A stretch of DNA of 32,150 nucleotides, taken from contig JAFGKF010000242.1 in assembly GCA_016928695.1 (NCBI GenBank), positions 1 through 32,150 on the forward strand, in the 5' to 3' direction. Within the stretch, counting starts at the first letter, position 1, and every line of letters starts with the position of its first letter. The translations under genes and the position numbers were made by a program. Below, one piece after another: positions 1 through 11,436 of this stretch. Under the pieces are notes generated by a model. The model was not told where the DNA came from, did not search any database, and was given only the letters and a program-made list of their open reading frames with translations. Origin of the DNA: Candidatus Sumerlaeota bacterium. GTDB taxonomy: Bacteria > Sumerlaeota > Sumerlaeia > JABWBI01.

Positions 1-2740
1 GCTCGCCCGTGTGGAGATCGTTGACGCGGAGCTGGCTCTGCGTGTCGACCGTGTGGACCCGTCCATCGGAGATGGTCGGCGACCCGTGCAGACCGGAGGT
101 GCTCTGAGTCCAGAGGAGATCCTCCGTCTCCAGGTCAAAGGCCGCGAGGCTGTTCATCCGGTTGTCGCCGAAGCTCTGCCAGATGCCCCCCATCACGACG
201 ACTCCATCCGCGACGGCTGGTGAGCACCAACTCGAGATCCAGTCGCCGCCGGGGCGGATCTCCCAGAGGGGCTCGCCTGTCTCGCAGTCGAGGCTCGCCA
301 GGCCCCCCGAGCTGCCACAGACCAGGCGCCCCTCCACGATCGCCGGTGCGGAGTAGATCCAGCGGAAGCGTGCATCGCCGTGCAGGTCATGCGTCCAGAT
401 CTCACCACCCGTCTCGGCATCGAAGGCGTAGACCCGCCCCCCGTGATCCGAGGCGTAGACGCGCTCGCCGTCGGTCGCGACGGTGTGGCAGACCGCCGTC
501 TGGGTCGGTGCGAACCAGAGCAGCTCACCTGTGTCGGCATCGTGCGTCACGACACCACTGTGCTCGAGATTGTCGCGGTCGCGAAGGCCGATGTGGACAC
601 GCTCACCGTCGGTGACCGGTGACCCGAACTCGAAGGTCACGGGATGCGTGGCAATCCAGTTCACGGCGAGAGGTGGCGTGATCTCGAGATCTGTCTGACC
701 CAAGTGCATCGCATCGCCCATGTGCATGGGCCAGGGTGTCAGATCACCGTGCTCTGATCCGATTGTCTCCGGCAGGAGCTCAAACTCCTGATCGGTCGAC
801 CAGCTCTCGCCACGTCCATCGACCGCGGTCAGCGTGACACTGTAGGGACCCGGTGTGATCAGCTCCGGTGTGATCTCCGCAGACCAGCCCAGCGGAGAGT
901 GAGCATGGAGCTCGCCCTCACGGCTCTCGGGAGCGACACCACCCCCCCCGGAGATCTCAAAGCGGGCCTCGACGACATCGCTCTCCGAGTCATACACCGC
1001 CGCGTGGATCGCCGTCAGCGGGGCCTCGACAACCAGATCCTCGGAGGGGCTGTGGACTGTCAGGATCCGCCCCGTCCGCCCGAACATGAAGCGGCTCGTC
1101 ACATGGTCGTCGTCGATGGTGATCAGCCGGAAGCCCGAGGGGCTGAGGTCGATCCCCCCCATCATGAAGGTCGGTGAGTTGATGCTCAGAAGCCCCTCGA
1201 AGTCGACCAGTCGATTCGAGTGCCAGTGGCCCGTCACGACCGCCCTGGCGCCCAGATCCACCAGTCGCTCGTACCGCTCGATGGTGGTCGGGGGGTAGTG
1301 CTGAAAGACGACGACGGTCTTGCCCTCGCCGAAGATGCGGACATCCTCGTCGATCCACGCCTCCATCGCGTCCGTCACGATGATCGAGTTGCGCACGACG
1401 AAGTGGCAGTCACCGCGGTCGAAAGAGTGATAGTCCGGCCCCACAAAGTGGCGATAGTGGACCGCGCCCTCATAGCTCCGCGTGTCGGAGTCGTGATTTC
1501 CAAAGCACGCCATCCATGGCCGCTCCGCGCGCTCTGCCACGGCGCGATAGGTTTCGAGCTGCCAGGGGCGTCCGCCGACGTTCACCAGGTCCCCCGTGGC
1601 CATGATGAAATCGATCGGCGCCGGATGACTGTCGACCTCCTCCAGGGCGTCGAGAAAGCGGGGGAAATCCTCCCGCTGATTGATGTGGATGTCCGTGACC
1701 TGGGCGAAGGTGAGCGGTCCCTCCCCCACCTCCTCGGGGATGAGGCCGAAATCCACCTCCGCGAGATCCTCGATCTCGCAGATGGGCCGGTGGAACGTCT
1801 GCATGAGTCGGCAATCCGCGGGCTGAATCACGAAGACGAGCTCCATGGCCTCCTCGGCGGGCTCGAGCGTGTAGTGCCCCTCCTCATCCGTCAGGGCGAT
1901 GCTGACGCCGTTGGACACACCGACCCCCGGCCATCCCGCCTCTCCCGCGTCGCGGAGGCCATTGGCGTTCTCATCGCGGAACACGGTCCCGGAGATCGGC
2001 CCATCGGCGAACACGGGCTCCGGTGGCTCCTCCGGGGCCGCAACGCCCTCCATGAAACGCTCCCAGTCAAAGCTGGGCCCCGGATCGATCTTCGGCGAGC
2101 GCCTCATGCCCAGATGAATCGCCCGCTCGCCGCCGATGTGCTCGTGGCCCGTGATGTTCTCCAGCGGGATCGGATGGCGCTGGCGGATGTCTCTCACGAG
2201 CGCGATGGCGGCCTCATATTGCTCCTCGGAGAACGGATCGCCGTGGATGTTGACGATCTCGATGCCGATCGAGAAGTCGTTGACCCCCTCGCGGTTGTCG
2301 GGCGCGGGCATGATCGATCCGCCCGCGTGCCAGGCGCGGTCGCTCTCGCGCACGAGCTGATAGATGATCCCGTCCCGCCCAATCACGTAGTGGCTCGACA
2401 CGTTGTAATAGTCGAAGATGTTCCAGTTGATGTCGATGCTGTGGGGATTCTCGGGGTCGACGTTGATGCCACTCGTGTAGTGGATGATCACCGTGTCGAT
2501 ATCACGCTCGGGTCCCACCGGATTGAAATGGGGAATGGGGATGGGGACGATGCCGAGGTGCTCGGAGGGCTGGAAGTGGCCCGGGGCCTGGAACTCCTCT
2601 GGGGCCACGCGCGCGGGCGGGGGCATCTGGCGGATGTCTTCGAGGTCGTCCGCCCAGACGGAGGGGGCAACCAGACCTGCCAGCCCGAGCGCCGCCATCA
2701 GACACTCTTGCCAGAGCCCAAAACTCTGTCGAAAAATCAT
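1..2740 (-). CDS. Secreted mosaic protein: N-acetylmuramoyl-L-alanine amidase + calcineurin-like phosphoesterase + PQQ-like beta-propeller (C-terminus cut by window edge)
   Basis: One uninterrupted minus-strand frame of at least 913 residues begins at the ATG at 2740 and leaves the window at its left edge. Residues 1-30 look like a signal peptide ending in SVWA. Residues about 80-232 match zinc amidases of the Amidase_2 type: IIHYTSG (His87), SSHYVIGRDG, HAGG, GHEH (His199) and KIDPG, which supplies the usual C-terminal ligand region. Residues about 247-335 form a small beta domain with SdrD/MetallophosN-like spacing (FRDENANGLRDAGE). Residues about 343-555 carry metallophosphoesterase motifs: DIH (350-352), GDL (383-385), GNHD (414-417), FQHYP (His481) and GHWH (504-507). 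A beta-rich linker follows, and from about 690 there are PQQ-like propeller blades (VYAFDAETGGEIW, LASLDCETGEPLW). The amidase suggests peptidoglycan cleavage; the phosphoesterase substrate and the propeller ligand are unknown. The gene diverges from 2775 with only 34 bp between the starts. Confidence 0.85.
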   Translation of the reverse strand, partial: MIFRQSFGLWQECLMAALGLAGLVAPSVWADDLEDIRQMPPPARVAPEEFQAPGHFQPSEHLGIVPIPIPHFNPVGPERDIDTVIIHYTSGINVDPENPHSIDINWNIFDYYNVSSHYVIGRDGIIYQLVRESDRAWHAGGSIMPAPDNREGVNDFSIGIEIVNIHGDPFSEEQYEAAIALVRDIRQRHPIPLENITGHEHIGGERAIHLGMRRSPKIDPGPSFDWERFMEGVAAPEEPPEPVFADGPISGTVFRDENANGLRDAGEAGWPGVGVSNGVSIALTDEEGHYTLEPAEEAMELVFVIQPADCRLMQTFHRPICEIEDLAEVDFGLIPEEVGEGPLTFAQVTDIHINQREDFPRFLDALEEVDSHPAPIDFIMATGDLVNVGGRPWQLETYRAVAERAERPWMACFGNHDSDTRSYEGAVHYRHFVGPDYHSFDRGDCHFVVRNSIIVTDAMEAWIDEDVRIFGEGKTVVVFQHYPPTTIERYERLVDLGARAVVTGHWHSNRLVDFEGLLSINSPTFMMGGIDLSPSGFRLITIDDDHVTSRFMFGRTGRILTVHSPSEDLVVEAPLTAIHAAVYDSESDVVEARFEISGGGGVAPESREGELHAHSPLGWSAEITPELITPGPYSVTLTAVDGRGESWSTDQEFELLPETIGSEHGDLTPWPMHMGDAMHLGQTDLEITPPLAVNWIATHPVTFEFGSPVTDGERVHIGLRDRDNLEHSGVVTHDADTGELLWFAPTQTAVCHTVATDGERVYASDHGGRVYAFDAETGGEIWTHDLHGDARFRWIYSAPAIVEGRLVCGSSGGLASLDCETGEPLWEIRPGGDWISSWCSPAVADGVVVMGGIWQSFGDNRMNSLAAFDLETEDLLWTQSTSGLHGSPTISDGRVHTVDTQSQLRVNDLHTGE

Positions 2741-2774: not shown

Positions 2775-3887
2775 ATGTTTGTCAGCGGCGGTCGAATGTC
2801 AAAGGTTCCCTGGTGGATCCCCCTCGCCCTGGCCGCCGTGGCCGTCCGGGTGCTCCTGATCGTCCTGGTCTGCCTCCGCGCCGACATCTCACTGGGTCAG
2901 TGGGCCCTGCTCCACGATGGGTGGGAATACATGCGGCTCAGCCAAGCGATCTGGGCCTGGGACCTCGGGGAGCTGAACCCTGAGCACCTGCGCTTTTTTC
3001 CCCTCTATCCGCTGGTGATGGCCCCCCTGAGCCAGATTCTCCCCATCGAGGTGGCAGGGCTCTCCCTCGCCATTCTCTGCGCCGTGGTCTGCGCCGTTCT
3101 GACCGCCCATCTGGGGAACGACCGCCGCCTGGCGTGGTGGCTCGTCGCATTCACCCCCTCCTGGCTCATGTACACCTCCACGGTCATGAGCGAGGCGCTC
3201 TCGGTCGCCCTCACCCTGGGCTGTCTCCTGATGATCACACGGCAGCGCTGGGCCTGGGCGGGCCTCCTGGCGGGGCTCTCGACCCTCACACGCCCTGTGG
3301 GGGCTCTTCTCCTTCTCCCCCTGATCACGGCGGCGCTGCGGTGCCCCGAATCGCGCCGTCGGAAAGTCCTGACGGCCCTGGCAACTGGTCTTCCCTTTCC
3401 CCTGGCCTATCTCGCCGTGAATCGTCTGATGCTGGGTGAGGCCCTCCGCTCGGTCAGCGGCTATGTCCAGCAGGACGCCGCCTGGCCGCTCCAGAGTCTG
3501 GTCCACGACACTCTGGACCCCTCATTCAGCCTCCAGCTCAAAATCCTTCTCTGGGGCACCCTGGCGCTGAGCCTGGCGGGGGCTGTGGGGCTGTGGAGGC
3601 GATGGAGGCAGGGCGAGCGATTCACATCGCCCCTGCTCATCTGGCATGTGAGCGCTCTGATCTTCTACGTCCTGATCCCCAGCATCTGGGCCTTCCGATG
3701 CCTTGACCGCTTTTTGCTCGCCATCTGGCCGACCACCCTCATCGGCCTGGCGCCCTGGCTTCCGCGCCACCGAGTGATCCACACAGCGCTCTGGCTGCTT
3801 CTCTCGCTCGCGGCCCTCTCCGTGGCTCACCGATGGGCGGTGAACCTCTCGGCTGTCTTCCCCTTCGCCGAGCGGGCTCTGCCCTGA
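2775..3887 (+). CDS. Multi-pass membrane glycosyltransferase, GT-C / PIG-V mannosyltransferase-like
   Basis: The 370-residue protein is strongly hydrophobic, with about eight to ten predicted membrane segments. An acidic aromatic stretch follows the first segment (LLHDGWEYMRLSQ, about residues 50-62) and then RFFPLYPLVMAPL (about 75-87). That layout, with an early luminal Asp and a following FPLYP, is typical of GT-C enzymes such as the PIG-V/DUF2029 group, which use polyprenyl-phosphate sugars. A role in lipid-linked sugar transfer in the inner membrane is inferred from fold and topology only; the substrate cannot be read. The ATG at 2775 follows GAGAG by four bases, and an alternative ATG lies at 2796. 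The gene diverges from the amidase mosaic gene and stands alone on its strand. Confidence 0.7.
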   Translation: MFVSGGRMSKVPWWIPLALAAVAVRVLLIVLVCLRADISLGQWALLHDGWEYMRLSQAIWAWDLGELNPEHLRFFPLYPLVMAPLSQILPIEVAGLSLAILCAVVCAVLTAHLGNDRRLAWWLVAFTPSWLMYTSTVMSEALSVALTLGCLLMITRQRWAWAGLLAGLSTLTRPVGALLLLPLITAALRCPESRRRKVLTALATGLPFPLAYLAVNRLMLGEALRSVSGYVQQDAAWPLQSLVHDTLDPSFSLQLKILLWGTLALSLAGAVGLWRRWRQGERFTSPLLIWHVSALIFYVLIPSIWAFRCLDRFLLAIWPTTLIGLAPWLPRHRVIHTALWLLLSLAALSVAHRWAVNLSAVFPFAERALP

Positions 3888-4098: not shown

Positions 4099-5634
4099 TC
4101 AGTAGGTCGTCTCAATCGTGACATCCTCAAAGAAGTAGTCCTCGGGCAGATCCCACTCGAGGTCGAGGAGATCGTGCGCATACCGCTCGGCGGCGGCGAG
4201 TGTCGGATCATGAAGAATGTTCGGGGTGACGAACACGTAGTAGTCGACCCTCTCGCGACTGTAGTCATCCCCACGGAAAAGCCAGCCGATGACGGGCAGC
4301 TGACGGAACCAGGGAACACCCTCCTCCGAGTTGACGCCCTCCATCTGGCGCAGTCCTCCGACCATGACGGTGCCCCCGTCCTCGATGATCACGTTGGACT
4401 CCGCCTGGCGGCGCGCGACCTGGGGAACGCTCGAGCCCTCGACCAGGATGCGGCCGACGAGGATCTCCTGGCGGCTGATGATCTTCATCCGCACGTAGCC
4501 GTTGTTGGTGATCCGGGGTGTGACCGTCAGAGACAGGCCCACATCCTTGAAGAGGACCGACTGGGTGGTCTGACCGCCCGGGTTGAAGGTCGACTCGACG
4601 TAGGGCTCCTCGCGGATGATCTCGATCTCCGCGGGGATGTTGTTGATCGTCGCGACCCGCGGAGCGGCGAGCACGCGGGCGAGCCCCTCCTCCTCGTAGG
4701 CCTCGAGCCGCACTGAGACGTCATAGCCGGCGATCACATTGCCGTAGGTCCAGACGGCGGCGGGGTCGGGCAATGCCCCGGAGACCACACCCAGGGCATC
4801 GCGGGCGACGAAAGTGGCATCATCTCCCCCGGCCCCCGGGTAGGTCAGAAGGTTGGGATTGAACGGCGCGTTGGCCCAGGGCGCACCACTGGTGGCCGTC
4901 TGATCGTCCGCTTGGCCGATGGCGAAGTTGGCTCGGAGCTGGCGCAGCGCGGTCTCACTGAGATCGACAAGGCGCGCCTCGATCATCACCTGGCGCTCAG
5001 GCGCGTCGAGCTCGTCGAGCAGGGCATCGATCTCCTCGATGCGCTGCGGGACGTCGCTGATCACCACCGAGTTGGTCGCCACATCGGGGCGGACCTGGCC
5101 CTCCTCCGAGATGAACTCCTCGAGGACACCGGCCATCTCGGTCGCGATCTGCCAGTTGAGCCGGCGGATCAGCAGCTGGCGCTCGATCGCGTCGGGCCGA
5201 ATCGTCTCGGCGGGGACGACACGGACGATCCCCCCCCGCTCGATGATGTAGCCGAGGCCGTTCGAGCGCAGGATCGCATCGAGTGCAAAGCGCAGCGGCA
5301 CATCCTTGAGGTCGAGGGTGATCGTCTGGCCTCTGGCGCCGGGCCCGATGATGATGTTGAGCTCCATCTGGCGGGCGATGATCCTCAGCGCGTTCTCGAG
5401 GTCCGCGTTGACGAAGGTGATGTTCACCAGGCGGTCGAGCACCTGCTCGGTCGAGCGCGACGAGAGCGCCGCGAACGAGTCGCCGGTGATGTCGGTCGAG
5501 ACGTTGACCGACTCGATGATGGCGTTCTCGGGCACGTAGCCCACTCCATCGACAGCGTTGGTCTCCGGGGCTCCGGCCAGTGAGGCCGCGAGGGCAACAG
5601 CCAGAGTGAGGGTGGTCACGATAGTCAACCGCAT
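4099..5634 (-). CDS. pilQ: Type IV pilus secretin PilQ (short form)
   Basis: The 511-residue protein is the outer-membrane secretin through which the pilus is extruded. Residues 1-27 form a signal peptide. Residues about 67-140 are an STN-like N0 domain (VNADLENALRIIARQMELNI, then DVPLRFALDAIL). Residues about 150-212 resemble an N1 domain (VRPDVATNSVVISDVPQRIE). Residues about 213-495 are the secretin domain, with VMIEARLVDL at its start, VIIEDGGTVMVGGL near its end and VPWFRQLPVIGWLF, the usual C-terminal signature. It lacks the AMIN domains of many proteobacterial PilQ proteins. ATG 5634 was preferred over an upstream start at 5679 because AGGAG lies ten bases before it and the signal peptide begins there. 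It is the last gene of the pil operon, and a hairpin follows it. Confidence 0.92.
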   Translation of the reverse strand: MRLTIVTTLTLAVALAASLAGAPETNAVDGVGYVPENAIIESVNVSTDITGDSFAALSSRSTEQVLDRLVNITFVNADLENALRIIARQMELNIIIGPGARGQTITLDLKDVPLRFALDAILRSNGLGYIIERGGIVRVVPAETIRPDAIERQLLIRRLNWQIATEMAGVLEEFISEEGQVRPDVATNSVVISDVPQRIEEIDALLDELDAPERQVMIEARLVDLSETALRQLRANFAIGQADDQTATSGAPWANAPFNPNLLTYPGAGGDDATFVARDALGVVSGALPDPAAVWTYGNVIAGYDVSVRLEAYEEEGLARVLAAPRVATINNIPAEIEIIREEPYVESTFNPGGQTTQSVLFKDVGLSLTVTPRITNNGYVRMKIISRQEILVGRILVEGSSVPQVARRQAESNVIIEDGGTVMVGGLRQMEGVNSEEGVPWFRQLPVIGWLFRGDDYSRERVDYYVFVTPNILHDPTLAAAERYAHDLLDLEWDLPEDYFFEDVTIETTY

Positions 5635-5703
5635 GGTCACAGTGCTCCTTTGTCGATCAGCCGGTGGGCGTCCCGGCAAGTTCGTTTCACGCCGTCCCCT
5701 GAG

Positions 5704-6552
5704 TCAGTTCACCGCCACGGGGACGGTGAACTCCTGGTTCAAGTACTCGAAGACCACGGCCTCCTGCCGGATCTCGACGATCCGCACATCGTAGTTGGGG
5801 ATAACATCGCCCTCCCCATAGATGCTGTCGCCGATCAGGCAGTTGGCGTTGGTCGGTTCGAACAGAATGCCGCGCAGCCCCAGCCGGATCTCATGGGGCA
5901 GGGTCACCTGCGACTGGGCCGTGGCTTGGATCGCCGCCGAGTTGACACCCTGCAGCATGGCCTCGATCCGCCCGATGGCCTGCTCGGCCTCTCCGGCCTC
6001 GGGGGAGCCGTAGTACTGGTCGTAGATGTCCCGGTAGTGCTCGAGCGCCGCGGGGAAGTTCCCGCTCCGCTCCGCCGCGCGCGCCAGCTCGATGAGGTTG
6101 TGCCGGTCGAACTCGCGCCGGATCCAGGGGATGATCATGGGGTCGCGCATGTCGGGCGTCGAGTAGATGAAGGCCGGGTTTGTCCCGAGCAGGCGCTCGA
6201 TGTGCTCCTCGGAGTCGAAGATCTGATTGATCAGAGAGGTGCCCTCCCCCGTCAGATCGGTCGCCTGAATGAGCTCCTGGGTGATCTCCTCACCCACGGG
6301 GCGGTCGAAGGGATTGGCTGTGGGGGGCACAACCTCGCCGCGCGCATCGATCTCGACGCCGTCGGGGCTGCCAGTCGCGCCGACCCTTCCCATGGTGTTG
6401 ACCAGGCCCGCCCCCGGGCCTCGGTAGGCCACATTGCTGGGCACAGCGTTGGGTGTCGGACCCTGGGCACCCGATGCCGCCGTCAGCAGCAGCGCGGCGG
6501 CGATGACGAGCACCGCGGTGAGTCTCTGCGACGGATGGTTTCTCATCATCAT
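5704..6552 (-). CDS. pilP: PilP-like periplasmic pilus protein with inserted helical (TPR-like) segment
   Basis: The 282-residue product starts with a signal peptide (about 1-29, ending near ASGAQ). A Pro/Gly-rich low-complexity stretch runs to about 85. The motif DMRDPMIIPW near 134-143 resembles the GRRDPF segment of PilP proteins. Residues about 150-200 look like a helical hairpin of TPR type (NFPAALEHYRDIYDQYYGSP). The C-terminal 65 residues form the beta-rich PilP/GspC-like domain (GDSIYGEGD, then VVFEYLNQEFTVPV). Its known role is to link the PilNO inner-membrane complex to the secretin. Three consecutive ATGs lie at 6552, 6549 and 6546, and GAGGTGA overlaps the stop of pilO. The assignment rests on position and C-terminal pattern because overall similarity to PilP looks low. 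Confidence 0.7.
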   Translation of the reverse strand: MMMRNHPSQRLTAVLVIAAALLLTAASGAQGPTPNAVPSNVAYRGPGAGLVNTMGRVGATGSPDGVEIDARGEVVPPTANPFDRPVGEEITQELIQATDLTGEGTSLINQIFDSEEHIERLLGTNPAFIYSTPDMRDPMIIPWIRREFDRHNLIELARAAERSGNFPAALEHYRDIYDQYYGSPEAGEAEQAIGRIEAMLQGVNSAAIQATAQSQVTLPHEIRLGLRGILFEPTNANCLIGDSIYGEGDVIPNYDVRIVEIRQEAVVFEYLNQEFTVPVAVN

Positions 6553-6558
6553 TTCACC

Positions 6559-7128
6559 TCAGAGCCCAGCGGGCAGATCATGGAGCATGAACGTCGTGAT
6601 CTCGACGTCCACGGGGTGGTTGACGGGGAGATCGCGGTCGTTGGAGATGTCGATGCGGCTGATGCGCATGAACCGGTTCGGGTTCTCCTCGATCAGATTC
6701 AGGAACTGACCGAACTCGTGGTAGTTGCTCCGGGCCGCGATCCGGTAGGGGATCTCGGTGTAGAGCTGATGGGTTCTCTCTCTCTGCGGGTGGAACTCGT
6801 TCCAGTCGAACTGAGTGGTCCCGACGATCTGCTGCAGCTCGCCGTAGAACTCGCGCGCCTCACGCGTCGACGGAAGGCGGCTCGAGGCCAGGAGAATGCG
6901 CTGCGCGAGCGCCTCGATCTCATCGTGCCGATCACGCAGGTCGAGCAGATCGTTGCGCAGCTGCTGCTGGACACGGATCTCCGCGTTGATCGTATCGATC
7001 TCGCTCATCGTCCGCGTGTGGGTGACGGAGAAGATCTGGAACTTGGCCCACACCGCACCCACCAGGATCAGGGCGCAGAGGAAGAGCCCGATCTGAAGTG
7101 TCTTCTTGTCCTGTTCGTTCAGCGCCAT
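6559..7128 (-). CDS. pilO: Type IV pilus inner-membrane alignment protein PilO
   Basis: The 189-residue protein has a short cytoplasmic N-terminus, one transmembrane helix (about 11-33), a coiled coil with many charged residues (about 36-75, MSEIDTINAEIRVQQQLRND) and a ferredoxin-like C-terminal half (EFYGELQQIVG, then YHEFGQFLNLIEENPNRFMRI). This order is that of PilO, which dimerises with PilN in the periplasm. ATG 7128 is preferred over the in-frame GTG at 7137 because AGGAGG sits ten bases upstream of the ATG but only one base from the GTG. The gene lies between pilN and the PilP-like gene, six bases before the latter. Confidence 0.88.
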   Translation of the reverse strand: MALNEQDKKTLQIGLFLCALILVGAVWAKFQIFSVTHTRTMSEIDTINAEIRVQQQLRNDLLDLRDRHDEIEALAQRILLASSRLPSTREAREFYGELQQIVGTTQFDWNEFHPQRERTHQLYTEIPYRIAARSNYHEFGQFLNLIEENPNRFMRISRIDISNDRDLPVNHPVDVEITTFMLHDLPAGL

Positions 7129-7148
7129 TGCGGCCACTCCTCCTGCGC

Positions 7149-7982
7149 TCAGGTGCTGTGGGGGGTGCCGCCCCCCATGCTGGCGAGATCGACGGTCGGA
7201 AGGACCATCCGGAACTCGTTGACCCAGACGCCGGCGACGTCTCGGATCCGGTTGTACTCGATGCGCGGCGCGTCGGCGAAGTGGTCCATGAAACGGCGCA
7301 CCTGGCCCGACTCGCCCCAGCCGACGTGGTTGAAGAGGTTGTCGCGGAACTGCAGCACCCTGCCGATCCGCTCGTCGACCTCATCGGAGTAGGCGATGCC
7401 ATCGATGACCAGCGTCTGGATGATCGAGGGGACGAGGATCGGCTCCGGGGGCACCGGATTGCGCGTCTCCTCGGGCTGCCCCTCCCAGGCCAACCGGGCC
7501 TCGATGCTCTCGATCGTCTCGACCTCATTGACCGTCTCGTTGACCGAGATGTGTGTGATGTAGACGTTGTCCGGCACACACTGGGCGATCTGATAGAGCT
7601 TCTCCGACCAGAGAATGCGGTTCTCTGGCATCAGGATGTCGATGACGCGCGCCTGCTGCTCGTACTGATACAGCGCCTCGCGGAGGTTGGCGTACTGCCC
7701 CTCGAGCTCGCTGACCTCCGCGCGGAGACCGTCGAGGTTCCCCTGAAGCTGATCGCGCTCCTGCTCGGGCTGATAGACGTCCGTGTAGTAGATGTAGGCG
7801 AACGCCCCGATGGCGATCAGAAACGCGGGGATCACCACGAGATAGACCAGCGGGGAGGTGCCGTCCCCGGAGCCTCCCCCGCCCCCGCCTCCGAAGTGGG
7901 ACTCGGGCGAGGACGGCCGGGAGGGACGGCGGCGCCGACTCTTCTCATCCTGGGGCAGCAGATTGAGGCGGATCATGCTCAT
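7149..7982 (-). CDS. pilN: Type IV pilus assembly protein PilN
   Basis: The 277-residue protein opens with MIRLNLLPQDEK (from residue 3), the cytoplasmic peptide by which PilN docks on PilM. A basic stretch and a run of seven glycines (31-37) follow. A transmembrane helix spans about 44-66, a coiled coil about 70-115, and a periplasmic domain follows with the PilN pattern LYQIAQCVPDNVYITHISV. The start at 7982 overlaps the pilM stop as ATGA, indicating translational coupling; the ATG at 7976 is an alternative. PilN is longer here than the roughly 190 residues common in proteobacteria because of the glycine linker and an acidic segment after residue 160. It bridges cytoplasmic PilM and periplasmic PilO. 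Confidence 0.9.
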   Translation of the reverse strand: MSMIRLNLLPQDEKSRRRRPSRPSSPESHFGGGGGGGSGDGTSPLVYLVVIPAFLIAIGAFAYIYYTDVYQPEQERDQLQGNLDGLRAEVSELEGQYANLREALYQYEQQARVIDILMPENRILWSEKLYQIAQCVPDNVYITHISVNETVNEVETIESIEARLAWEGQPEETRNPVPPEPILVPSIIQTLVIDGIAYSDEVDERIGRVLQFRDNLFNHVGWGESGQVRRFMDHFADAPRIEYNRIRDVAGVWVNEFRMVLPTVDLASMGGGTPHST

Positions 7983-9142
7983 GCGACCTTTCTCAGCGCC
8001 AAGCCGATACCGACACCGAGGACCTCTCGGCAGTTGGCCAGGGTGTTCTCATCGATGTTCTTGGAGTTGAGCGACAGCGATGCCACGGGGTTGAAGATCT
8101 CGGTGGGGAGACCGATCTCCTGGGTGAAGTGATTCGCGATGTTGGGCAGGCGGGCGGTCCCACCGCACAGAACCATGCGCGAGACCGGCTGCCCGGAGAC
8201 CTGGTTCTCGAAGAACTGCAGCGAGCGCCGGATCTCGGCCACCAGGGTGTTGAGCGACCCGCGGATGATCCGGCTGGCCTGGCTCTCGAGACTGTCGTCG
8301 CCGAGGTCCTCGCCGGTCATCTCGTTGACCGCCCCCTGCAGCGACTCGATCAGGGGTGAATCCTCTCCCTCGCCCCCGTCGGTGTCGACGGAGGGGGCGG
8401 GGGCCGCGACGTGGACACCCTCGCTGAACTTCAGCTGCTCGGCCTCGGAGAAGCTGATGCCCAGCTTCTGCTCGAGTGCCGTCGTGATCGTGCGGCCACC
8501 GAGGTTGATGTCGCGGGCGAAGTGGCTGAGACCACCATGGTAGATGTTGATGTTGGTGATCTGAGATCCGATGTCGACAAGCACCACCACCTCGTCGGGG
8601 GAGGGGCGGGCGCTCTGCTCATAGCAGTTGAAGAGCGCGAAGGAGTCGACATCGACGATCTCGGGGATGAGACCCGCACCGCGGATCAGGTCGAGGTGGG
8701 AGCCGATGATGTCCTTCTTGGCGGCGACGAGCAGGACGTTGAGGCGGCGGCTGCCCCCCTCCTCGGTGACACCGAGGATGTGACTGTCGAGGTTCACCTC
8801 TTCGATGTGGAAGGGGATGTACTCCTCCGCCTCGTAGCGCAGGGCGTTGCGCAGCTCCTCCTCGGTCATGTGCGGAAGCTGAATGTAGCGGACGATGATC
8901 GACTCGCCGCTGACGGACGAGACCACATTTTTGGCTGTGATCTTGGCGGCGGCGACAGCCCGCTCAATCGCGGCGATCTTGGCGGCGCGGACGTCAGTCT
9001 CAGAGTCAGACTTGCCGTTGGGGTAGATGGGAACAGAGGCAAACTTCTCCAGCTCGATCCCTCGGCTGGTGCGGCGCATCTGCACCGCCTTGACGCTGCA
9101 GGACCCGATGTCCAAGCCGAACGCGGCTTTCCGTTTGAACAC
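7979..9142 (-). CDS. pilM: Type IV pilus assembly protein PilM (actin-like ATP-binding)
   Basis: The 387-residue cytoplasmic protein has the actin/FtsA-fold nucleotide motifs: phosphate-1 GLDIGSCSVKAVQ (9-21), phosphate-2 VVLVDIGSQITNINI (186-200) and the adenosine motif LCGGTARLPNIANHF (325-339). Its first third (HMTEEELRNALRYEAEEYIPF) is characteristic of PilM. An acidic, low-complexity insertion lies at about 246-288. The start is GTG at 9142, with GGGAG nine bases upstream. It is the first gene of the minus-strand pilMNOPQ operon and overlaps pilN by four bases. PilM binds the PilN N-terminus and forms the cytoplasmic ring of the pilus alignment complex. No PilB or PilT motor gene is in the window. 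Confidence 0.95.
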   Translation of the reverse strand: MFKRKAAFGLDIGSCSVKAVQMRRTSRGIELEKFASVPIYPNGKSDSETDVRAAKIAAIERAVAAAKITAKNVVSSVSGESIIVRYIQLPHMTEEELRNALRYEAEEYIPFHIEEVNLDSHILGVTEEGGSRRLNVLLVAAKKDIIGSHLDLIRGAGLIPEIVDVDSFALFNCYEQSARPSPDEVVVLVDIGSQITNINIYHGGLSHFARDINLGGRTITTALEQKLGISFSEAEQLKFSEGVHVAAPAPSVDTDGGEGEDSPLIESLQGAVNEMTGEDLGDDSLESQASRIIRGSLNTLVAEIRRSLQFFENQVSGQPVSRMVLCGGTARLPNIANHFTQEIGLPTEIFNPVASLSLNSKNIDENTLANCREVLGVGIGLALRKVA

Positions 9143-9360
9143 GCTTGATCACTCCCAGCGGGGCCAAAGCCACCCACAGATTTTATGTCAAACAGCCTTG
9201 CCAGCTGTGGTCACAAAACCCTCATCGGGGGTTCCGGGGGAAACATTGAGGGCTTTCTTCAGATTTTTCGGCACCCCCGCTCAGGACCGTGGACCTCTCG
9301 GAGAGGGGAACTTGGGGTGAGGCTTGTCAGTGCTCTTCGGTGGGGGCATGGTCGTGGCCA

Positions 9361-11436
9361 ATGAGCACGTCGAGCACCTCCAAAATCGACCGGCTGTGGC
9401 CCTGGGATGCCCTCGGGGTGAGCCTGTGGCTGCTGTGGAGTCACTGGCGACCCCAGGAGGCATTTCCGGAGTGGCGAGCGATGGGGTTGGCCGTTTGGAC
9501 CGCGGCAATCCTGCTCCGGGGGCTCGTCGCCGTGCGAATGCAAGGGCTGGCACGCCCCGCTCTGATCACTGCACTGATTTTCATTGCACTCCCCCTCTGG
9601 GCCTGGGTGGCCACGGTGATGGGAATCAATCCCCCCGCGGGTGCCGTGGTGCTGGGGACACTAATGCAGGGGGCCATGGCAGCGCTCTGGGGAGCACTTG
9701 TGGTGATGAGCCGGCGCAGCTCCGCGGACGCCACTCTGAGGGGGGGCATTCTGGCTCTCGGACTCCTCGCCCTGCTGCTCTGCCTCTGGGGCCTCTATGC
9801 TCACCAGGTTCAGCGCCATCGCAGCATCGCCGAGCTCGAGGCGCTGGTGACCCCTCAGGATTATGAGACACAGGCTCTGCTGCACAATCTGCGGGAGGGA
9901 AGGATGCGCTCCAGCCTCGGCGATCCAAACCACCTGGGTCTGATTGCCGCGGCAGGCTGCATCGGCTTGGTCGCGGGGGCGATGTGGACAGGCAGCGCCC
10001 TGACTCGATGGGGACTGCTTGCCGCAGCCGCCGTGACGGCCGTGGCGGAGGTGATGACCGCGTCGCGGGGGGGAATGCTCTCTCTGCTGGGGGGATTCAC
10101 TGTCCTTCTGCTGGCTTGGCTGCTGCAGGGGCGCCGTGGCAGGGGGCGAATGAGCCCGCTGCTGCTGGGAGCAATTGCACTGCTCTTGCTCGGCGCGGGA
10201 GGTCTGGCACTGCTGCTCTCCCCCACCCTTCTCGAGCGGTTGACCAACACCGCGACGATCACCGAGCGCCTGGGTTACTGGAGCATCGCATGGCAGGTGT
10301 TTCTGAAAAATCCTCTGATGGGTGAGGGGCTCGGGGGATTCGTCACCTGGTATCCATCACTGCGACCGCCCGGCCTGGGAACCGCCCAGTTCGCTCACTG
10401 CCTCCCCCTCCAGCTGCTGGCGGACATCGGTCTTGTCGGTCTTCTCGTCTCTCTTCTGCCCGCGCTGCTCTTCGTGGGGCCGCGCCGTGCCCTCGACAGC
10501 CCCGTGAGCCCGGGGGCCGGCTCCGCTTGGCTGGCTGTGATGACCTGCTTTGCGATCAACAGTCTGATTCAACACTCGATCCTCTTCCGCGAGCTCTGGA
10601 TTGACGCGATGCTGCTGCTGGGCCTGGGAGCGGGTTGGTCAATGTCAAGGGGTGAAACCCGCGAAACGAACTCCCCTCTTCTGGCCCTTCTCTCTGCAGT
10701 GCCCGTGATCGCCCTGATCGCTTTGGTGGCTCCCCGTGAGATTCAGAGAGCACGGGCCGAGCTGCTCCAGATGGCGGGGAGAGTCGCATGGGAGAGCGGT
10801 CAGGCACAGGAGACCCTGGATCTGACCGAGGAGCTGATCGCCTGTGAGCCGGATTTCGATCGATGGCGGAGCCTCGCCGCCGCGCGATTCCTCTGGCTGG
10901 CCCAGGTCATTCCAGCACGGTCAAGTGAGTTCCTCGATCAGGCGCGGGCGAACCTGAGTGAGGCCCATGCTCTCAATCCCCTCCTCCCGTCGGTTCACGC
11001 CACCCGGGCACGGATCGCCTCCCTCCTCGGGCAGAGGCAGGCCGCAGTGGATCATCAGCGCAGGGCGGTGGAGCTCCACCCCGCCGAGGTCGCGCACCGT
11101 GCCCAGCTGGCGATCTATCTCCTGGAGGCTGGGAATGCAACCCAGGCGGAGATCGAGGCGCGCGCCGCTCTGGCCATCGATCCCCATGATGTGGACGCGC
11201 TGATGGCACTGGCGCGCACACTGTATCAGCGCGATCAGCATGCGGAGGCGCTGGAGCACGCTCGTCTCGCCGCCCAGCTCGAGGACATCAGGGCCGACAC
11301 ATGGCTGCTGATCTCCCAGATCGAATATTCCTCAGGGGAGATCGATGCCGCCCGACTCAGCGCACAGAGTGCTCTGGAACGAGACCCCCAGAGCCCCGAG
11401 ATTCAGGGCTGGGTGCAACGACTGGGAGCCCGGTGA
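9361..11436 (+). CDS. O-antigen ligase/polymerase (Wzy_C-like) membrane protein with C-terminal TPR domain
   Basis: The 691-residue product has about eleven hydrophobic segments up to residue 450. Within them are a conserved Arg-Gly stretch (ASRGGMLSLLGGF, about 233-245) and a large periplasmic loop with EGLGGFVTWYPSL and AQFAHCLPLQLLADIGLVGL (about 321-361). This pattern is that of the Wzy_C/O-antigen ligase family, which joins undecaprenyl-linked glycan to an acceptor. From about 455 to the end the protein is soluble and helical with TPR-like repeats (WESGQAQETLDLTEELI, HALNPLLPSVHATRARIASL, AALAIDPHDVDALMALARTL). ATG 9361 is chosen because the protein is hydrophobic soon after it; an in-frame GTG at 9289 would add 24 unconvincing residues. 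Its stop is three bases from the stop of the facing deacetylase gene. Confidence 0.85.
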   Translation: MSTSSTSKIDRLWPWDALGVSLWLLWSHWRPQEAFPEWRAMGLAVWTAAILLRGLVAVRMQGLARPALITALIFIALPLWAWVATVMGINPPAGAVVLGTLMQGAMAALWGALVVMSRRSSADATLRGGILALGLLALLLCLWGLYAHQVQRHRSIAELEALVTPQDYETQALLHNLREGRMRSSLGDPNHLGLIAAAGCIGLVAGAMWTGSALTRWGLLAAAAVTAVAEVMTASRGGMLSLLGGFTVLLLAWLLQGRRGRGRMSPLLLGAIALLLLGAGGLALLLSPTLLERLTNTATITERLGYWSIAWQVFLKNPLMGEGLGGFVTWYPSLRPPGLGTAQFAHCLPLQLLADIGLVGLLVSLLPALLFVGPRRALDSPVSPGAGSAWLAVMTCFAINSLIQHSILFRELWIDAMLLLGLGAGWSMSRGETRETNSPLLALLSAVPVIALIALVAPREIQRARAELLQMAGRVAWESGQAQETLDLTEELIACEPDFDRWRSLAAARFLWLAQVIPARSSEFLDQARANLSEAHALNPLLPSVHATRARIASLLGQRQAAVDHQRRAVELHPAEVAHRAQLAIYLLEAGNATQAEIEARAALAIDPHDVDALMALARTLYQRDQHAEALEHARLAAQLEDIRADTWLLISQIEYSSGEIDAARLSAQSALERDPQSPEIQGWVQRLGAR

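Follow-up and report, generated by a model that had tools for sequence, protein, structure and literature searches.

A peptidoglycan amidase joined to a secreted phosphoesterase–propeller core in one family of Sumerlaeia

Two genera of one Sumerlaeia family share a fused gene in which an Amidase_2 domain precedes a calcineurin-type phosphoesterase and a BamB-like propeller. The fusion is real and provides a documented case of one polypeptide, stable across the two genera, that unites a phosphoesterase with a peptidoglycan amidase. The phosphoesterase–propeller core is a widespread, known module with exchangeable N-termini, and only the added amidase is new, which makes this a plug-in event and not a new fold or chemistry. 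The three-way fusion appears to be lineage-specific, and the function proposed for it below is plausible.

The fusion gene and its counterpart in a sister genus

The window, that is, the whole stretch of DNA analyzed, is the complete contig C243 (32150 bases) of a metagenome-assembled genome (MAG) of 393 contigs and 4.17 Mb that is about 93% complete. The fusion gene occupies window positions 2..2740 on the minus strand, starts with an ATG at position 2740 and encodes 913 residues with no stop up to the contig end, by which it is truncated: residue 913 aligns to residue 902 of a 1049-residue ortholog. From the N to the C terminus, the protein consists of a signal peptide, an Amidase_2 domain, a MetallophosN domain, a calcineurin-type phosphoesterase, an Ig-like domain and a BamB-like propeller (Table 1). 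Pfam matches were obtained for Amidase_2 (PF01510; residues 79-222, E 1.6e-31, 109.8 bits vs. a curated cut-off of 26), MetallophosN (PF16371; residues 267-315, E 8.2e-11, 42.4 bits vs. 35.6), Metallophos (PF00149; residues 344-508, E 4.8e-16, 60.2 bits vs. 21.5) and PQQ_2 (residues 729-851, E 3.9e-20). A hydrophobic leader also starts the ortholog (L003). The first-pass annotation of this DNA had read a signal peptide, an amidase, a MetallophosN-like domain, a phosphoesterase and PQQ-like blades in a single frame, with which the Pfam matches and the motif positions agree; the truncation and the Ig-like domain between the phosphoesterase and the propeller had escaped it.

Table 1. Features of the fusion gene and of the adjoining part of the window
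Feature	Window positions	Strand	Residues and basis
Signal peptide	2648..2740	-	Residues 1-31, MIFRQSFGLWQECLMAALGLAGLVAPSVWA, apparent signal peptidase I site before DD; read from translation
Amidase_2 zinc amidase	2075..2506	-	Residues 79-222; H87, H199, D219 and catalytic E161/K217; Pfam, motif positions
MetallophosN-type beta domain	1721..2002	-	About residues 247-340; PF16371 over cut-off, AlphaFold2 strands
Calcineurin-type metallophosphoesterase	1031..1720	-	About residues 341-570; PF00149; all dimetal ligands present
Ig-like beta domain between phosphoesterase and propeller	761..1030	-	About residues 571-660; AlphaFold2 strands, Foldseek matches to PKD/Ig domains
PQQ/BamB-like propeller, first ~5 of 8 blades	2..760	-	Residues 661-913; cut by contig end; PQQ_2
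Divergent gene, weak GT87-like membrane glycosyltransferase	2775..3887	+	Pfam GT87 below cut-off; adjoins the fusion gene in the sister genus too (synteny)
Type IV pilus cluster (secretin, PilM, genes between)	4099-9142		Collinear in sister genus
O-antigen-ligase-like protein with TPR repeats	9289-11436		Collinear in sister genus

The same order, which the earlier annotation had proposed to look for in related genomes, was found in Candidatus Sumerlaeia bacterium MAG_26 (JABWBI010000024, locus L039), a member of the same family that belongs to another genus. Its ortholog is one intact gene of 1049 residues with an identical domain order and 60% protein identity to the window protein. The neighborhoods of the two genes are collinear and comprise the divergent GT87-like gene, a secretin, further pilus-cluster genes, PilM and an O-antigen-ligase-like gene. 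That two genes were joined by a frameshift or by the assembly, a reading to which a fragmented MAG and a gene running to the contig end might lend themselves, is vanishingly improbable: a frameshift or chimera is excluded because an independent MAG of another genus holds the same order in one open frame, with full collinearity, and GC and GC3 are even along the fusion gene, with no step at the amidase/phosphoesterase joint. Identity between the two genera reaches 67.5% in the amidase and 70.7% in the phosphoesterase, compared with 27% in the 11-residue linker between the amidase and the core, 47% in the Ig-like domain and 50% in those propeller blades that the window covers. This is the pattern that would be expected if both enzymes were under selection.

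The remainder of the gene was sought with a composite query made of the ortholog C-terminus and its downstream genes. Its 3′ end turned up on another contig of this genome: one end of C306 encodes 82 residues that share 60% identity with the C-terminus of the ortholog, and about 67 residues between the two contigs are still missing. Since no direct sequence overlap was found between C243 and C306, their connection is supported by homology and gene order and not by joined reads. On C306, the fusion gene is directly followed by a DUF2961 gene whose product is 80% identical to that of the downstream DUF2961 gene of MAG_26, and then by TetR and RND efflux genes. In MAG_26, the fusion gene is followed, with gaps of a few bases each, by genes for a small secreted carboxypeptidase-regulatory-like protein, the DUF2961 protein and a GH51-like protein. 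Thus, the linkage of the fusion gene to DUF2961 (GH172-type) is conserved in both genomes and the rest of the downstream context is not. C306 also encodes another phosphoesterase (L144:8878-11574), which is joined to a carbohydrate-binding CBM9 domain and lies about 7 kb away from where the fusion gene ends (3′).

Catalytic domains and propeller

The amidase motif residues H87, E161, H199, K217 and D219 were read from the translation, and the zinc ligands and catalytic Glu are also present in an alignment of relatives. The best solved relatives of the domain are AmpDh2 and AmpD (PDB 4bj4 and 1j3g), with which it has in common the zinc ligands, the catalytic Glu and the Lys-x-Asp-Pro-Gly motif of Amidase_2; unlike them, it harbors a 10-residue insert before Lys-x-Asp and is joined to a phosphoesterase. 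Assignment as an AmpD equivalog (NF008758) was rejected, with 99.4 vs. 143 bits. Stand-alone secreted amidases of Armatimonadota are 54-57% identical to the fused amidase and carry the same 10-residue insert, and other stand-alone members of this secreted set occur in Sumerlaeota. In the deep part of the amidase tree, the fused-amidase clade and its related clades meet at open forks.

Other Sumerlaeota also combine Amidase_2 with further domains. Three proteins of family f4 (L012, L021 and L105) have a related amidase likewise joined to another secreted hydrolase; unlike in the window protein, this hydrolase is a GDSL lipase/acylhydrolase, and their amidase falls into a different clade. In other members of the class, more distant Amidase_2 domains are fused to an M23 peptidase (L100) or to Golvesin_C (L115).

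The motif residues of the phosphoesterase (D350, H352, D384, N415-H416, H481, H505 and H507, from the translation) include metal ligands that are invariant over the 13 sequences of an alignment of relatives. An AlphaFold2 model of the MetallophosN–phosphoesterase–Ig part of the window protein itself had a pLDDT of 85.8, and Foldseek returned Rv0805 as the nearest solved phosphoesterase. In a profile search against PDB sequences, the enzyme part matched purple acid phosphatases, GpdQ-like phosphohydrolases and Rv0805, and the N-terminal part matched SdrD B domains. The pairing of an N-terminal beta domain with a phosphoesterase recalls the MetallophosN-Metallophos-MetallophosC proteins (PF16371/PF00149/PF16370), from which the window protein and its ortholog differ in that MetallophosC is absent and an Ig-like domain and a propeller stand in its place.

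AlphaFold2 modeling of the full-length ortholog (mean pLDDT 85.6, pTM 0.81) gave, by strand count, a propeller of eight blades with four strands each, which is closed by an N-terminal-side strand; about five of these blades are thus encoded in the window. The propeller has the 8-bladed fold of BamB and PQQ-like propellers in common and matches BamB with TM-scores of up to about 0.8 on the target. It is nevertheless not a BamB ortholog (TIGR03300; 50.9 vs. 285.2 bits), and a PQQ-dependent redox function was ruled out (TIGR03075; 38.5 vs. 480 bits), the propeller lacking the vicinal Cys pair (CC) of PQQ dehydrogenases; unlike these proteins, it is part of a multidomain enzyme. The best reading of the propeller is that of a non-catalytic platform, and the scaffold role suggested in the first-pass annotation thus finds support in the BamB-like fold and the missing Cys pair.

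Spread of the core and rarity of the fusion

Cores made of MetallophosN, phosphoesterase, Ig-like domain and propeller without the amidase were found in at least seven phyla, namely Sumerlaeota, Armatimonadota, Calditrichota, KSB1, Delongbacteria, Bacteroidota and Verrucomicrobiota. The secreted core takes different N-terminal modules in different phyla: a leader only, an unnamed domain of ~240 residues, a LamG/concanavalin-like domain (judged by reading) or Amidase_2, the last in one Sumerlaeia family only. In L004, L006 and L120 (two Sumerlaeota proteins and one from Armatimonadota), the unnamed domain occupies the place of the amidase; no Pfam match to it was obtained in L004 and L006, the two that were scanned. 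In the core tree, the six Sumerlaeota proteins form one clade (99/99), within which the two amidase fusions form a clade of their own (100/100). The fusion would have originated by N-terminal domain exchange, an old and widespread core having received an amidase from the secreted stand-alone family.

The three-way order is present in two of the 39 genomes of the class, these being both members of the family, and was found in none of 291 genomes of the Armatimonadota phylum, 388 of the Verrucomicrobiota phylum and 82 of the phylum that holds both the Caldithrix and the KSB1 MAGs. Scanning about 85,000 species genomes for motifs returned 50 loci, with an amidase within the match only in MAG_26; these scans were seeded with patterns and scored a small number of candidates in each genome, and they could miss fusions whose core has diverged. 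The first-pass annotation knew of no described architecture with this combination, and genome scans did not find it outside the one family; nor were papers on the exact three-way architecture found with the search terms used. No relatives were found in viral contigs, and a viral origin was rejected, as phage matches cover the amidase or the phosphoesterase alone and none exceeds 34% of the query. Among the matches listed, plasmid relatives correspond to the phosphoesterase–propeller part only.

The co-occurrence of phosphoesterase and propeller, also pointed out at first reading, is common in relatives and has been described (PMC11188070). According to that study, the calcineurin domain of B. 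subtilis ShfP belongs to a ‘vast radiation’ of secreted bacterial phosphoesterases, whose members are joined to surface domains such as Ig, LamG and PQQ propeller and in some cases to an extra catalytic partner, ZU5 (autopeptidase) or NAGPA; ShfP releases glycerol, and PhoD is cited as a teichoic-acid diesterase (PMC11188070). The fusion protein fits this ShfP-like radiation in its secreted calcineurin domain, Ig-like domain and propeller, a match by architecture as described there. It differs in its N-terminal peptidoglycan amidase, a partner not listed in the portion of the account available (PMC11188070).

Predicted function and its alternatives

On balance, we lean towards a secreted, modular and bifunctional hydrolase whose amidase acts on peptidoglycan and whose phosphoesterase acts on wall or glycan phosphodiesters, with the propeller as a platform and the products passed to glycan catabolism. 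After Sec export, the amidase would cut the MurNAc-L-Ala bond of peptidoglycan or muropeptides, as predicted from its family and residues. The phosphoesterase would hydrolyze phosphodiesters in a wall polymer or glycan that is bound to this peptidoglycan or intermingled with it, for which a teichoic-acid-like polymer, a linkage phosphodiester or a phosphorylated glycan are candidate substrates. A phosphodiesterase step is predicted from the calcineurin site and the nearest relatives, and phosphodiesterase is a likelier activity than monoesterase. The choice of these candidate substrates follows from the amidase partner, the GH172 neighbor and the contexts of relatives. Nucleotides or glycerophosphodiesters could also be substrates, since the nearest solved phosphoesterases, Rv0805 and GpdQ-like enzymes, are promiscuous. 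The propeller may hold the domains together or dock them to a partner or polymer. The products would enter a glycan-catabolic pathway, with the neighboring GH172-type gene as a candidate component. The DUF2961 protein may instead act inside the cell on another substrate, since no signal peptide is visible in that of MAG_26, and GH172 (DUF2961) also includes difructose-dianhydride enzymes. Other enzymes of this family have alpha-D-arabinofuranosidase activity on mycobacterial wall arabinan (PMC10115798).

A coupling of wall cleavage with dephosphorylation of an envelope polymer, as put forward in the first-pass annotation, is plausible, but the two catalytic domains may also stand together without mechanistic coupling. 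If both activities were coupled on one wall substrate, a single chain would degrade the wall, and this would hint concretely at what an uncultured phylum feeds on. Without such coupling, the protein would be a well-defined case of domain shuffling.

The genes around the fusion gene and the core relatives point to catabolism of glycans or wall fragments more than to modification of the own envelope. They include, beside the GH172-type genes of both Sumerlaeia genera and the GH51-like gene of MAG_26, genes for GH2/GH27/GH36 next to the core relative of a Prolixibacteraceae and for an LD-carboxypeptidase next to that of Caldithrix. In Bacteroides finegoldii (L147), a phosphoesterase–propeller relative is clustered with a phosphodiester glycosidase, a DUF6528 protein and two GH3 enzymes, likely a utilization locus for a phosphodiester-bearing glycan. 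Across phyla, no conserved core neighborhood was found beyond this recurring glycan-enzyme theme, and the context is suggestive only because the neighbors of the core differ between lineages.

Alternatively, the protein might serve the own envelope: a periplasmic amidase of AmpDh2/AmiD type would turn over or recycle the own peptidoglycan, the phosphoesterase would trim phospho-groups from the own envelope polymers, and the BamB-like propeller would dock to an outer-membrane complex. This is rather unlikely, although several observations speak for it. Among solved structures, the amidase comes closest to AmpDh2 and AmpD and the propeller fold to BamB, an LD-carboxypeptidase adjoins the Caldithrix relative, and the fusion protein is the only Amidase_2 found in its genome, which encodes an Omp85 protein and is therefore probably that of a diderm. 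On the other hand, an amidase is missing from most core relatives, many of the relatives have glycoside hydrolases as neighbors, the propeller failed the BamB cut-off, and the plentiful Amidase_3 enzymes could cover own-wall turnover. The genome is probably rich in wall amidases: it has 15 Amidase_3 matches (contigs C64, C88, C130, C39, C240, C249, C318 and others), several in tandem pairs, and that of the sister genus has eight. Together, the Omp85 protein and the 15 matches fit either a wall-feeding habit or a complex turnover of the own wall.

A more specific version of wall feeding, in which a single secreted enzyme dismantles the walls of other bacteria, is improbable as it stands. It would cut the stem-peptide bond of peptidoglycan as well as the phosphodiester that holds or makes up the secondary wall polymer (teichoic acid or arabinogalactan), the linked GH172 would take the D-arabinofuranoside part, and the organism would feed on actinobacterial or other Gram-positive walls.

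It is similarly improbable that the protein mainly scavenges phosphate, the phosphoesterase acting on nucleotides, phospholipid head groups or extracellular DNA and the amidase being mainly a peptidoglycan anchor or a passenger of a chance fusion. The wide spread of the core without the amidase, the broad specificity of the diesterases that are its closest phosphoesterase structures and the release of glycerol by ShfP (PMC11188070) would agree with such a role. The fused amidase, however, has kept all its catalytic residues and is conserved on par with the phosphoesterase, and the fusion gene is linked to DUF2961/GH172 in both genera.
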